NCBI RefSeq assembly: GCF_001644605.1
Contig: NZ_CP011388.1
Coordinates: forward strand, 4,073,501-4,137,500
Direction: 5' to 3'
DNA from: Paenibacillus swuensis
GTDB lineage: Bacteria > Bacillota > Bacilli > Paenibacillales > DY6
DNA: 64,000 bases
Part shown: positions 5,121 through 59,313 of the stretch, piece after piece
Layout of the letters: every line of letters starts with the position of its first letter
How positions within the stretch are numbered: the first letter of the stretch is position 1
The notes under the pieces: generated by a model
What the model saw: the letters and a program-made list of their open reading frames with translations, nothing else
The model's database searches: none
Told to the model about the DNA's origin: nothing
Program-made: the position numbers and the translations under genes

Positions 5121-5400
5121 CCTAGTACCTCCCAGTTGTGAATCCGGTTACAGCCGGACTTCTTAGCAATATAGTTACCCCTGTGATTCTCTACACACTA
5201 TTCCCGTCTAAAGGCGAAAATCAAGATCTCCTTCCCCTTTACTATTGAATCTTTTATGAATATTAGCACCATAGAATTTATCCTTCAATCAGTGGAATAA
5301 CGCATATTTCCTCATATAACCACCTCTGCCTTCATAAGGAGGAACTAATCCTCTGAAATCACTTAAATCATCGAAAATCATTCCATTTGTTACCTGTACG
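5121..5400. other. Intergenic stretch with one possible promoter
   Basis: This AT-rich gap separates dynA from the ABC exporter and shows no credible ORF. On the minus strand TTGAAG (5288-5283), a 17-nt spacer and TAATAT (5265-5260) could be the exporter promoter, giving a leader of ~130 nt. Nothing else recognisable was seen. Confidence 0.35.
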
Positions 5401-38897: not shown

Positions 38898-39569
38898 CTA
38901 ATGATTCAATCCAGCACTGAGATTCATTGTGTCGGACTTATGCTGCACCATTTCAAGGTTAGACAACGGCTCCACTATAGAAGGATCCAATTGATAAGCC
39001 ATTTTGAAATATTCGCAAGCTTTTTCGGTATTTTGGTTTCTGGCCTGGATGCAGCCCAAGGCGTTATATGAGATGGCTTTCATCATTTTGTTGTCTGTCA
39101 TCGGGATAATCATCTGAAAGTGTGGGTAAGCTTCATTCATATCCCCTGTTTTCAGATAGGCAAGAGCTAAATACAGTCGGGCCAGTAAATAATCAGGCTG
39201 AGCGGCCACGATCGCCTTGAAGTAACCAATGGCTTCTTTAAACATGTATAATTTGAAGTAGCCTTGTCCTTTAATAAATTCCGAGGATTTCAACTCAGGC
39301 GAAAGCTGACCTCCTTGTTGTTCAAGCAATTGAGATAATGAGAATGGATGATGGCTGGAAACGTTATCAGATGAGTTTTGTTCCGAAGGCAAAGTCCTGA
39401 TTTTTTCTTCAAAAAGCAACCATTCCTCAATCATTGAATCGCTCATCGCTTTCAGAACCTGAATCTTCTCGTTCAATTCCTCTTTCCGCGTTCCTGTTGC
39501 ATTAGGAAAATCACGGATGATCTCATCCAAAACTTCATTCATTGAAGCGAATATCGGTTTGAACATCAT
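38898..39569 (-). CDS. Tetratricopeptide-repeat protein
   Basis: A ~223-residue soluble protein. The N-terminal half is helical and coiled-coil-like (~10-60); the C-terminal half has about three TPR units (GYFKLYMFKEAIGYFKAIVA, ARLYLALAYLKTGDMNEAYP, SYNALGCIQARNQNTEKACE). It probably acts as a protein-interaction scaffold. The start is uncertain: ATG 39569 and 39566 both follow GAGGGGTGGGAC. It lies between panD and dinG with no terminator visible. Confidence 0.78.
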   Translation of the reverse strand: MMFKPIFASMNEVLDEIIRDFPNATGTRKEELNEKIQVLKAMSDSMIEEWLLFEEKIRTLPSEQNSSDNVSSHHPFSLSQLLEQQGGQLSPELKSSEFIKGQGYFKLYMFKEAIGYFKAIVAAQPDYLLARLYLALAYLKTGDMNEAYPHFQMIIPMTDNKMMKAISYNALGCIQARNQNTEKACEYFKMAYQLDPSIVEPLSNLEMVQHKSDTMNLSAGLNH

Positions 39570-41873: not shown

Positions 41874-42030
41874 ACCTATCCCACAAGAATCCACTTCATA
41901 TGATCCTTCTGTCTCGGTCCCTTCGGCTCAGAGCAGAATCCAACATACTACTTACGTTAGTATGAGATTGTTTTCAATCCATCCTTTGGAAAGTGCAGCT
42001 CTGACAAAGTCAAGATACCGCCTCACCTCT
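41874..42030 (-). promoter_or_regulatory. Structured 5' leader of panBCD, possible regulatory RNA
   Basis: The transcript from the promoter at 42033-42062 would carry this stretch before the terminator. It holds further hairpins on the minus strand, including AAGGATC-N9-GGATTCTT (around 41885-41910) and ATACT...AGTAT (around 41945-41965). panB leaders in Firmicutes are known to carry the conserved 'pan' RNA motif; I could not confirm its consensus here. No T-box or SAM-box element is seen. Confidence 0.45.
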
Positions 42031-52884: not shown

Positions 52885-53427
52885 CTATCCTCTTGTATTC
52901 GGTTTCAGACCGCCCAGATAAACATATCCGTCTTTAACTTCCACTTCATATTCATCAAGTGGGGCCGGTGCAACCATTAAGTTCTTACCGTTCTTGTCAT
53001 AATGCGCATTGTGGCAAGGGCACATAAACTGATTCGGCGTGGAAGGATCGTTATTCCAACCGATTGTGCAGCCTAAGTGCTTACAAATCGGAGACATGGC
53101 GTATACACTGCCCTGCTCGTCTTTGAGTATCCATGCTTCAAATTCCGGATCGCTCTCAAACCATCCGTCTACTTGATGTGCCTGAAATTTGAACGACTTC
53201 GGTTCCGTCGTAATTTTGCTCTCCTCAACAACTTTCACCATAGCCGCTTCGTCTTTCTTGCGCAACAGCGGATCCACCGCGAATCTTACCATCGGAATGG
53301 TAGGACCGGCTGCCAGAAAGGCTGTCGTGCCTCCAAGCGTGTAAGCCAGAAACTGACGTCGCGACATTTCGCGGCGTTTAGGCTTTTCGTTTACTCCAGG
53401 CAGACTCTGCTTGTTCTCGTTACTCAT
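52885..53427 (-). CDS. qcrA: Menaquinol:cytochrome c reductase Rieske iron-sulfur subunit
   Basis: A 180-residue Rieske protein. A twin-arginine signal anchor (MSRRQFLAYTLGGTTAFLAAGP) fits Tat export. The [2Fe-2S] ligands are in SPICKHLGCTIGWN and CPCHNAHYDKNG, with both bridging Cys present. ATG 53427 has AAAGGGGG upstream; a longer frame to 53460 lacks an RBS. First gene of qcrABC, behind a good promoter. Confidence 0.96.
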   Translation of the reverse strand: MSNENKQSLPGVNEKPKRREMSRRQFLAYTLGGTTAFLAAGPTIPMVRFAVDPLLRKKDEAAMVKVVEESKITTEPKSFKFQAHQVDGWFESDPEFEAWILKDEQGSVYAMSPICKHLGCTIGWNNDPSTPNQFMCPCHNAHYDKNGKNLMVAPAPLDEYEVEVKDGYVYLGGLKPNTRG

Positions 53428-56520: not shown

Positions 56521-57129
56521 TTATGTCCTTGTTCTGGAAAACCAATTTAAGATAAGCAAAATTCCGATTAAACCTAATAAGGATACGGCTACCAAATAAT
56601 CAGGATAAGAGATCGCGCCGATCTTTAATACGATGGGGTCGCTGATGCTCGCTACCGGCATTTCTTGAAACATATCCGCGGTTACATCCACCATGCCCGC
56701 TGTCAAAGCGCCCTCAGGGAGCAAACCCGAAGAATCTATCGCGGATTGAAGCGTCTGGCTTCTTGATTCCGACACCAGGGAATAGATGAAACTGACACAG
56801 AAGAAGGCTAAACTCAAGGCAAGGGCCACGGATACATTCCTGCGCCACTTGTAAGTCATGTTATAGATTCTGTTGTGTACCGGAAGTCTCCATGCTTCTT
56901 CCGAATAAATTCGTTCCATCACGGATTCCGCCAGGTTTCTGGTCGGGATCGGCCGTTCGGCGATTAACGCCGAGACTTGGATTAAATCTGCCGATTCTCT
57001 CCAGATGTCGAACTCTTCCCTGCAAGATGCGCAAGTCTCAACGTGCTCCTCCACCAGGATCCGCTGGCTGTCTTCTTCAGGCATATCCCAATAAGTCACC
57101 AACAGATCTTGGATGTCTGAACATCTCAT
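56521..57129 (-). CDS. Membrane anti-sigma factor (zf-HC2 type)
   Basis: A 202-residue protein. The N-terminal zinc-binding anti-sigma domain has His-x3-Cys-x2-Cys in EEHVETCASCREEFDIW (His28, Cys32, Cys35 approx.). Two membrane helices (~101-122 and ~175-195) frame an outer region of ~50 residues that likely senses an envelope signal. Its ATG overlaps the sigma-factor stop (ATGA). It should hold the cognate sigma at the membrane until proteolysis or a conformational change. Confidence 0.9.
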   Translation of the reverse strand: MRCSDIQDLLVTYWDMPEEDSQRILVEEHVETCASCREEFDIWRESADLIQVSALIAERPIPTRNLAESVMERIYSEEAWRLPVHNRIYNMTYKWRRNVSVALALSLAFFCVSFIYSLVSESRSQTLQSAIDSSGLLPEGALTAGMVDVTADMFQEMPVASISDPIVLKIGAISYPDYLVAVSLLGLIGILLILNWFSRTRT

Positions 57130-57719
57130 CGTTGATTCATCCCTTCGTATTCTTGAAAAATAGGTTCTGCGAAATAGGGCTCCAGTTGAGCTTTCACACT
57201 AGCCCTTGCCCGAAACAGGAGTGACTTTACCGAAGATACCGTCAAACTTAAAACATCGGCGATTTCTTGGTAATCCAATCCTTCGTATTCTCTTAAGATA
57301 ATTGCAGCGCGCTGCTTCTCCGGTAAGCTGTTGATCGCTTCACGCACCATTGAAACCTTCTCGCTTTGCAGCATTCGTTGTTCAGGCATGACATCGGGTG
57401 ACGCCGCCGGATTATGTATACCGTCATCCAGGGATACGGTGGTGCTCTTCTGTTTACGCAGCTCGCTCAGCACAGTGTTACGTGCGATTGTATAGAGCCA
57501 AGTGGAAAAGGAGGCGTCCGTCTCCCGGAAGGTCTGTAAACTGCGATAAGCTTTATAGAACGTTTCCGAGCATAAATCTTCTGCTACGGACTCCATCTTG
57601 GCGCCCTTAAGCATATGAAATATAAAGGCGAGGATTTTGCGCTGATAACGCTGCATCAACTCCGAATATAATTCAATATTACCGTCCTTGATTTCTCGAA
57701 TTAACTGGGAATCGGTCAT
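57126..57719 (-). CDS. ECF RNA polymerase sigma factor
   Basis: A 197-residue group IV sigma-70 factor. Region 2 is in YSELMQRYQRKILAFIFHML...DLCSETFYKAYRSLQTF...FSTWLYTIARN and region 4 is in INSLPEKQRAAIILREYEGLDYQEIADVLSLTVSSVKSLLFRARASVK. It is coupled to a zinc-finger anti-sigma. It resembles SigW/SigX-type envelope-stress factors; the signal is unknown. A weak ECF-like promoter upstream suggests autoregulation. Confidence 0.94.
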   Translation of the reverse strand: MTDSQLIREIKDGNIELYSELMQRYQRKILAFIFHMLKGAKMESVAEDLCSETFYKAYRSLQTFRETDASFSTWLYTIARNTVLSELRKQKSTTVSLDDGIHNPAASPDVMPEQRMLQSEKVSMVREAINSLPEKQRAAIILREYEGLDYQEIADVLSLTVSSVKSLLFRARASVKAQLEPYFAEPIFQEYEGMNQR

Positions 57720-57989: not shown

Positions 57990-58067
57990 CAAAAAAAGAG
58001 CCACCCAAAAGGGTGGCTTGCACGAAAAGTGCTAGTATCGGATAGGAGTGGAGAGAAACCATACTGT
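57990..58067 (-). ncRNA. Candidate small regulatory RNA (~78 nt)
   Basis: A consensus promoter (58074-58102) drives this stretch, which ends in a strong terminator. Minus-strand structure has three hairpins: AGTATGG...CCGATACT with a CU-rich loop (TTTCTCTCCACTCCTAT), GCAC-ttttc-GTGC (58032-58020), and AGCCACCC-tttt-GGGTGGCT plus seven T. The loop is complementary to GGAG-type ribosome-binding sites. A 25-codon ORF in it has no RBS and runs through the terminator, so it is probably not coding. No known RNA family recognised. Confidence 0.7.
57991..58018 (-). terminator. Terminator of the candidate small RNA
   Basis: Perfect AGCCACCC/GGGTGGCT 8-bp stem, 4-nt loop and T run on the minus strand. 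Confidence 0.9.
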
Positions 58068-58073
58068 ACTTTT

Positions 58074-58102
58074 ATTATATGTATACGTTTTCATTCTGTC
58101 AA
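58074..58102 (-). promoter_or_regulatory. Consensus promoter of the candidate small RNA
   Basis: Minus-strand TTGACA (58102-58097), exactly 17 nt, TATAAT (58079-58074): the best sigma-A promoter in the window. No gene of normal size starts downstream before the terminator at 57991-58018. Confidence 0.9.
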
Positions 58103-58139
58103 CACTTTTTTTGAAACGCTTTCTTTTCGGGAGAAATGA

Positions 58140-58171
58140 ACGAAAAGAACGCCTTGCGGCGTTCTTTTCGT
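58140..58171. terminator. Terminator of the trp-hisC-tyrA operon
   Basis: Perfect 14-bp stem ACGAAAAGAACGCC/GGCGTTCTTTTCGT, 4-nt loop, 13 nt past the tyrA stop; symmetrical, so it would work on both strands. Confidence 0.85.
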
Positions 58172-58183
58172 GGCAAATTTGAA

Positions 58184-59275
58184 TTAATAATGTACCGAAT
58201 ACCCTAAATCGGCCAACACGCGGGCCGCCTCTTCCCAATCTTTCTCATTACGGAAAGATAATCTAAGAACACCCGGCACATCTTCGCGGCTTTCAATGAT
58301 TTGAATGTTGCTTAAATTAATCTTCCGATTTCCGAGCTCGGATGTGATGCTTCCGATAATGCCCGGATGATCCGGAACATCCACGTAAAAATCATACAAA
58401 GCTGTAATCATTCCCTTGCGTCGCTCAGGCAACTGCTTACGGAACTCTCCCGCTAGCCGGAACCGTTCCACTATTCCTTCGCCGTCTTCCCGTTCAATTA
58501 AATTCGCAAAGCCGGCAATCTCCTGATTCCAGTCCGAAATTAATTTCAACATGACTTCTTTATTATTCAGAAGTATATCGCGCCAGATGTACGGATCACC
58601 GGAAGCAATGCGCGTAATGTCCCTGAAGCCTCCTGCAGCCAGATTCTGGTACAACGCATTGTCCTCATTGTATCCTGAGATCTGGTTTACTAGCGCTACG
58701 GCAATTACGTGAGGTAAATGACTGACAGCTCCGACGATATCATCGTGAAGCTGAGCATCCATCTTCATGATCTGAGCTTTCGTGTGCTTGAGCAGATCCT
58801 CGAGAGCTTTGTAAATCTCGACAGGTACACGCGGCCCCGGGGTAAGGACATAAAAAGCGTTCTCGAACAGATGCGAAGAGGCCGCCTCCACACCTGAACG
58901 CTCTGAACCTGCCATGGGATGCCCCCCGATGAAGTAACTGTTCCCGAGGGCAATCCGCTCAGCGCATGATGAGATTGAATGCTTAGTGCTCCCTACATCC
59001 GTAATAATACATCCCGGTTTCAGGTTCATCTTGCTTAACTCCTGCAGATAAGGCTCCAGATTACCTACAGGCACACACAAAAAGATGAAATCGGCCGCTT
59101 CTGCGGCTTCCTTCATCGATGTGGTACCCTGATCTACGACATTACGTTTAACATACTTGGCTACGGAGTCTGGATTGTTGGAATGTCCGATGACATGCAG
59201 GTCCGGCTTTCCTTTGAAACAAAGTGCAAGTGAGCCTCCGATTAAGCCAACACCGAATATAGAAATTGTAGTCAT
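58184..59275 (-). CDS. tyrA: Prephenate dehydrogenase
   Basis: A 363-residue enzyme of tyrosine synthesis. N-terminal Rossmann loop FGVGLIGGSLAL, catalytic segment GGHPMAGSERSGVEAA, VSHLPHVIA, and a C-terminal ACT domain (~290-363; YVDVPDHPGIIGSITSELG) for feedback control by tyrosine. ATG 59275 is chosen over TTG 59287, which abuts the AAAGG. It is the last gene of trpCFBA-hisC-tyrA; aroE, which follows in B. subtilis, is absent. Confidence 0.95.
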   Translation of the reverse strand: MTTISIFGVGLIGGSLALCFKGKPDLHVIGHSNNPDSVAKYVKRNVVDQGTTSMKEAAEAADFIFLCVPVGNLEPYLQELSKMNLKPGCIITDVGSTKHSISSCAERIALGNSYFIGGHPMAGSERSGVEAASSHLFENAFYVLTPGPRVPVEIYKALEDLLKHTKAQIMKMDAQLHDDIVGAVSHLPHVIAVALVNQISGYNEDNALYQNLAAGGFRDITRIASGDPYIWRDILLNNKEVMLKLISDWNQEIAGFANLIEREDGEGIVERFRLAGEFRKQLPERRKGMITALYDFYVDVPDHPGIIGSITSELGNRKINLSNIQIIESREDVPGVLRLSFRNEKDWEEAARVLADLGYSVHY

Positions 59276-59313
59276 GTTATAAAACAACCTTTGTTTAGAC
59301 GTAGTGGTTCGTA

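Follow-up and report, generated by a model that had tools for sequence, protein, structure and literature searches.

The minus strand of the 64-kb window (the whole stretch of Paenibacillus swuensis DNA that was analyzed, 64,000 nt) contains a small-RNA gene that most likely produces a free-standing, base-pairing RNA, repressed by CcpA and blocking ribosome-binding sites when a preferred sugar is absent. In the mechanism that we propose, CcpA would occupy a cre (CcpA operator) in the promoter spacer and keep the promoter shut in the presence of a preferred sugar; in its absence, RNA polymerase with sigma-A would produce an RNA of ~77 nt ending at its own terminator. The single-stranded 5′ seed of this RNA, UUUCUCUCCACUCCUA, which resembles an anti-Shine-Dalgarno sequence, would then pair with translation start regions of the GGAG/GGAUAG type, and ribosome entry would be blocked. 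The messages controlled in this way are probably lineage-specific. About half of the Bacilli genomes sampled contain its near-invariant core of ~16 nt, which makes it unusually old and strongly constrained among the base-pairing RNAs of bacteria. With this RNA, Paenibacillus, Cohnella, Brevibacillus and their relatives would possess a small RNA of catabolite repression on a par with RsaI or RosA of the model species.

Features of the small-RNA locus and its neighbors in the window
Feature	Position	Strand	Basis or remark
tyrA, prephenate dehydrogenase, upstream neighbor	58184..59287	-	start codon as given by the ORF tool
Terminator-like hairpin between tyrA and the small-RNA promoter	58140..58171	-	
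Second, imperfect cre-like site AGAAAGCGTTTCAA, upstream of the -35 hexamer	58111..58124	-	by eye
-35 hexamer TTGACA	58097..58102	-	sequence match
Predicted cre (CcpA operator) TGAAAACGTATACA, filling the -35/-10 spacer	58080..58093	-	perfect consensus match
-10 hexamer TATAAT, 17 nt from the -35 hexamer	58074..58079	-	sequence match
Predicted small RNA, ~77 nt	57991..58067	-	start predicted from the -10 hexamer; end is the end of the T run
Conserved 5′ seed TATGGTTTCTCTCCACTCCTATCC	58040..58063	-	conservation
Universal core TTTCTCTCCACTCCTA	58058-58043	-	at every position, 256 to 263 of the 263 unique copies agree
Small hairpin (stem 2) GCAC-TTTTC-GTGC	58020..58032	-	fold and alignment; two of five pairs changed on both sides
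Intrinsic terminator GCCACCC-TTTT-GGGTGGC and T run	57991..58017 (stem 58017-58000, T run to 57991)	-	
ECF-type sigma factor, downstream neighbor	57126..57719	-	

All parts of the gene lie on the minus strand of the window. The promoter, TTGACA-N17-TATAAT (58102-58074), is the sole perfect copy of this pattern in the window, and none was found in 100 shuffles. The predicted start (~58067) and the end of the terminator together give the RNA length of ~77 nt; its predicted fold has an energy of -24.4 kcal/mol (z = -4.96), and none of 200 shuffled sequences was as stable. The original prediction had described a perfect sigma-A promoter, a short transcript with a strong terminator, and a further terminator on the tyrA side. 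Each of these was found, the last as a terminator-like hairpin; the coordinates and the length were right, and the strand had been left unstated. Thus, the observation of a small-RNA gene with its promoter, RNA span and terminator is confirmed, and the gene has the features by which trans-acting base-pairing small RNAs are generally recognized, i.e. an own promoter, an intrinsic terminator and no encoded protein.

The 5′ segment of the family reads UGGUUUCUCUCCACUCCUAUC, with UUUCUCUCCACUCCUA as its core. The CU-rich stretch TTTCTCTCCACTCCTAT at 58058-58042 on the minus strand is complementary to GGAG-type ribosome-binding sites, as had been predicted, and is near-invariant among the homologues. 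The region 3′ of the core diverges, and the hairpins and terminators there differ in sequence, but 236 of 239 loci had a run of at least five T within 130 nt downstream of the seed (of the other three, two end at the locus edge and one was excluded for an N). In an alignment of 39 homologues of the window's subtype, compensatory changes were seen in four of the eight terminator pairs and, weakly, in two of the five pairs of stem 2; the covariation of the whole structure exceeded that of all 500 shuffles, chiefly owing to the terminator. The original prediction had placed the CU-rich stretch in the loop of a first stem. In the same 39-RNA alignment, its outer four pairs were formed in 67.4% of the cells with no compensatory change at all, and stem 1 was rejected as a conserved element. 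The conservation check therefore favored the stretch, the terminator and, weakly, stem 2, but not stem 1. RNAalifold offered an alternative, a hairpin of three pairs between UGG and CCA at the start of the seed, which would be broken in f16 copies that have TGA for TGG. The predicted probability of the seed being unpaired had a median of 0.81 and a minimum of 0.53 over 195 RNAs, and was 0.97 for the RNA of the window. Since stem 1 lacks covariation while the stretch is near-invariant and its unpaired probability high, the conserved CU-rich stretch is best read as a single-stranded 5′ seed, conserved and, by prediction, accessible. From its complementarity to Shine-Dalgarno sequences we infer that such sites are its targets, and the interpretation given in the original prediction is thus partly supported.

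An ATG lies at the seed in 225 of the 263 unique copies and is followed by the codons for MVSLHSYP in 209 of them, so the stretch could be conserved as the beginning of a micropeptide gene (MVSLHSYP...). We give this reading next to no credence. The ATG is missing from 38 of the 263 copies, in which the seed is still kept; the ORFs that it opens range from 6 to 425 codons, 136 of the 225 extending beyond the terminator; conservation at third codon positions equals that at the others; and the predicted 5′ leader would comprise just a few nucleotides. Frameshifted natural copies were also seen. The micropeptide was rejected because the frame that the ATG opens is not maintained, and the earlier statement that no protein of credible size is encoded holds, including its proviso that the small ORF should not be what is conserved in place of the RNA.

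The invariant stretch might also be a binding site for a protein on the DNA, at +5 to +28, instead of an RNA seed. Two loci (L211 and L213, with a near copy in L212) lend this some color: their promoter spacers hold the seed in reverse complement, GGAGTGGAGAG, and the start site is thereby flanked by an inverted repeat. In the other loci the stretch has no such symmetry, it belongs to the transcribed region and is followed by the T run in nearly all loci, and a 16-nt asymmetric stretch of such constancy is unusual for an operator. We therefore regard a DNA operator as highly improbable and retain the reading of the stretch as an RNA seed.

Of 60 genomes of the order, the own genome included, 58 matched a query of 156 nt comprising promoter and RNA with E ≤ 1.7e-8, a conservation well above what chance would give. 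The two genomes without a strong match were G036 (81% complete) and G027 (1.4 Mb, 91% complete). An exact 30-mer recurred in at least 119 stretches, from Paenibacillus, Cohnella, Fontibacillus, Brevibacillus and Caldalkalibacillus genomes. With up to three mismatches allowed, 138 of the 398 Bacilli genomes searched contained a 27-mer (55 of the 146 genera; reversed pattern, 0), and 198 contained the 21-mer TGGTTTCTCTCCACTCCTATC (85 of the 146 genera, compared with 17 genomes for the reversed control). Several families of Bacilli have no copy of the RNA. Downstream of aroA in genomes that mostly had no match, shorter conserved copies were present in L316, L319, L331 and L337, and none in the other loci. 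In a phylum-wide sample, 13 of 299 genomes matched, five of them from the own order. Outside the Bacilli there were matches in 8 of 288 genomes, each with three mismatches, and the control matched in the same number of genomes; the layout of promoter, seed and terminator was absent from the five non-Bacilli matches inspected. Since the matches outside the Bacilli are at the control level, the family looks confined to this class.

In the window the gene sits 3′ of tyrA, and the genes downstream of it encode the ECF sigma factor and a zf-HC2 protein. The upstream same-strand ORF cluster that contains the tyrA of the window was found in 176 of 239 loci and the aroA cluster in 61, where clusters are connected components that also absorbed opposite-strand frames; the start of tyrA was read directly in many loci. 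Among the 28 loci L340-L368 without L356, aroA lies upstream in eight, and in other loci of this group the upstream ORF end is presumably that of a DAHP-synthase-like protein. As the gene keeps its position 3′ of aromatic amino-acid genes across families, it looks vertically inherited. This constant linkage to tyrA or aroA, with neighbors on the same strand, would also suit a cis element, either a leader or attenuator of the downstream gene or the 3′ end of the tyrA or aroA mRNA. Such a role is very unlikely, since the gene has a perfect promoter and a terminator of its own, the downstream genes vary between families, and some genomes hold second copies elsewhere. Second seed copies with their own hairpin and T run were found in L475 (G091), L476 (G248) and L238 (G281). 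A stand-alone RNA is thus the reading that we follow here.

The original prediction had missed the operator, as the promoter spacer is a perfect match to the cre consensus. The consensus used was TGNAANCGNWWNCA. The window contains four perfect matches to this pattern against 0.68 expected. The three others are at 5139-5152 (-), 39356-39369 (+) and 52894-52907 (-). We surveyed 261 unique regions, from 272 usable ones, for the operator. In the Paenibacillales the best cre was perfect in all 153 unique regions and always lay in the spacer, compared with 0.2 expected from dinucleotide shuffles. In 149 of 149 Paenibacillales promoters the fixed cre positions were invariant and the free positions varied, of which only the variation at free positions is informative since these promoters were picked by pattern match. 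A box similar to the second cre-like site was present in many, but not all, homologues. In the Brevibacillaceae (e.g. L183-L199), 20 of 22 unique regions had a perfect cre, there inside the terminator hairpin. A cre within one mismatch was found in 29 of 30 regions of f16/f58 (over the -35 hexamer in 23 of these), in all four regions of f29/f42 (with C for G in the center), and in 11 of 19 regions of the remaining families. The cre recurs in several families but not at one fixed position, which argues that CcpA control has been under selection. Because the operator lies inside the promoter, we infer that CcpA represses the small RNA, the predicted sign being taken from the operator position only; the cre in the terminator hairpin of the Brevibacillaceae might influence termination in addition to initiation. 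The conserved cre in the control region that marks members of a CcpA regulon is thus present in this family, except in f21, where no cre within one mismatch was found in 10 regions, and in the f27/f40 group, where only 5 of 23 regions had one against 1.1 expected, so that CcpA control is not universal. The comparison of lineages with and without the cre makes the purpose of the seed directly testable.

Targets were sought at the translation starts of the own genome (751 start regions from 800 kb of this genome and the window), a search that the original prediction had called for. The pairing energies lay on the strong side, but they were not clearly beyond those of 20 shuffled seeds, three of which had a lower mean and one of which gave more starts below -18 kcal/mol. 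The strongest-pairing of the 751 starts belonged to a mannose-1-phosphate guanylyltransferase-like gene (L292:5590-6942, minus strand; label by eye). Of 246 genomes of the order, 80 had starts complementary to the seed, i.e. AGGAGTGGAGAG-N0-11-ATG, compared with 54 for a permuted control, and in one of the 80 (G010) the match was the RNA gene itself. An ORF followed 40 of the 50 target sites examined and 21 of the 30 control sites. The 40 target ORFs included three ABC permeases (L390, L399 and L451), a solute-binding protein (L452) and an ABC ATPase (L391) that has orthologues in three further loci from its genus (L394, L396 and L397; by eye); no sugar transporter was recognized by eye among the 21 control ORFs. 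With one control pattern, these results are no more than suggestive.

Other searches gave single sites. Among 26 starts read from a search of 40 genomes with AGGAGTGGAG-N0-12-ATG, the only recurrence was that of two orthologue pairs, each within one genus, and no gene came up in more than one genus; exact 11-mer matches within the homologue loci were unconvincing. The start of a PTS lactose/cellobiose IIA gene (PF02255; L454:677-1024, minus strand, G059) can form 19 contiguous Watson-Crick pairs with the seed, and strong sites were also found at genes for an AMP-binding enzyme in G077 (acsA by eye) and a biotin-carboxylase-type enzyme in G404 (pyc by eye), all three coming from very large scans. 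Several of 14 pyc starts paired well with the seed, but not consistently, and for acsA few starts were read, and unreliably, in 29 homologue loci. Once six known second copies are discounted, the 21-mer scan yielded ~33 matches beyond one copy per genome, against 17 control matches, and the excess is therefore at most about twofold.

The best conserved target candidate is tyrA in the Brevibacillaceae. Its start there is typically GGATAG-N5-GGAGATG, which pairs with most of the seed. The mean z of this pairing was -2.92 over 28 unique starts, 75% of which were below -2 (the related species are not independent), compared with -1.11 for aroA (30 starts) and -0.55 for hisC (21 starts) of this family. 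The candidate fails in the Paenibacillales (z = +0.22, 72 starts), and the pairing was likewise absent from f16 (+0.07, four starts) and other families (+0.59, five starts). As tyrA pairs with the seed in the Brevibacillaceae and not in the other families, lineage-specific targets appear likelier than one universal target. One may go further and suppose that an ancient RNA of the Bacilli, located beside the aromatic operon, uses its near-invariant anti-Shine-Dalgarno seed to tie tyrosine/chorismate supply and sugar uptake to the catabolite state, and that in the Brevibacillaceae it represses the adjacent operon (tyrA) with CcpA acting via the cre in the terminator hairpin; we put this forward as a speculative proposal that is more probably wrong than right. 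It is also conceivable, but improbable, that the CU-rich seed serves mainly to titrate G-rich small RNAs or leaders, i.e. that the RNA is a sponge mirroring the action of the G-rich RosA and RsaI on the C-rich RoxS. These two CcpA-repressed RNAs bind other small RNAs via G-rich regions, according to PMC8216469 and PMC9266662, and the pairing with mRNA starts of the own genome, not clearly stronger than that of shuffled seeds, would agree with such a role. The seed is, however, CU-rich and anti-Shine-Dalgarno-like as in mRNA-targeting RNAs, ribosome-binding sites complementary to it exceeded the permuted control, and the tyrA start of the Brevibacillaceae pairs with it. An RNA acting on ribosome-binding sites is therefore the reading with which the known systems are compared below.

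The small RNA matched no Rfam family at the gathering score, and the permissive list held weak matches to unrelated families; antisense_SR1 reached 11.4 bits, on the opposite strand, at a cut-off of 45. Elsewhere in the window, the Rfam pan motif (RF01749) scored 36.8 bits at 41905-42024 (-), with a cut-off of 36.2. Among the titles and abstracts listed from the open-access PMC literature, none described the small-RNA family; the seed sequence, in four spellings, had no match there, and the words tyrA, Paenibacillus and Brevibacillus do not occur in PMC6429828 and PMC2864571.

Four systems are close enough for comparison. RsaI (RsaOG) of Staphylococcus aureus is a stand-alone RNA that is repressed by CcpA, derepressed without glucose, and blocks translation at Shine-Dalgarno sites (PMC9266662); it also has G-rich regions and is described as conserved in Staphylococcus, not in Bacilli generally (PMC8216469). 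The RNA of the window shares with it, as predicted from sequence, CcpA repression of a stand-alone RNA and the blocking of Shine-Dalgarno sites. Unlike RsaI, it has no run of more than three G, it does not match Rfam as RsaI even at permissive scores, and its seed and neighborhood would seem to be different. RosA of Bacillus subtilis is likewise stand-alone, with a sigma-A promoter that has a CcpA site (here predicted), and is repressed by glucose; however, it is a G-rich sponge of ~225 nt for RoxS and FsrA (PMC8216469), whereas the present RNA has ~77 nt, a CU-rich seed and no G-rich region of that kind. RoxS/RsaE and FsrA are also short, and through C-rich regions they pair with the Shine-Dalgarno sites of mRNAs from central metabolism (PMC8216469, PMC8464778); the RNA described here has a CU-rich, anti-Shine-Dalgarno-like seed. 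They differ from it in being regulated by Rex/ResD or Fur, and no Rfam match links them to it. SR1 of Bacillus subtilis, which is conserved over Bacillales, is repressed under glycolytic conditions through a CcpN site in the promoter spacer (PMC8464778), the position of the predicted CcpA site here, but it has 205 nt and encodes SR1P, and no ORF is maintained in the ~77-nt RNA. By analogy, the RNA most likely works like RsaI and RoxS without detectable homology to either. Small RNAs controlled by CcpA or CcpN are a known kind, and what is new is this family, its age and its operator.
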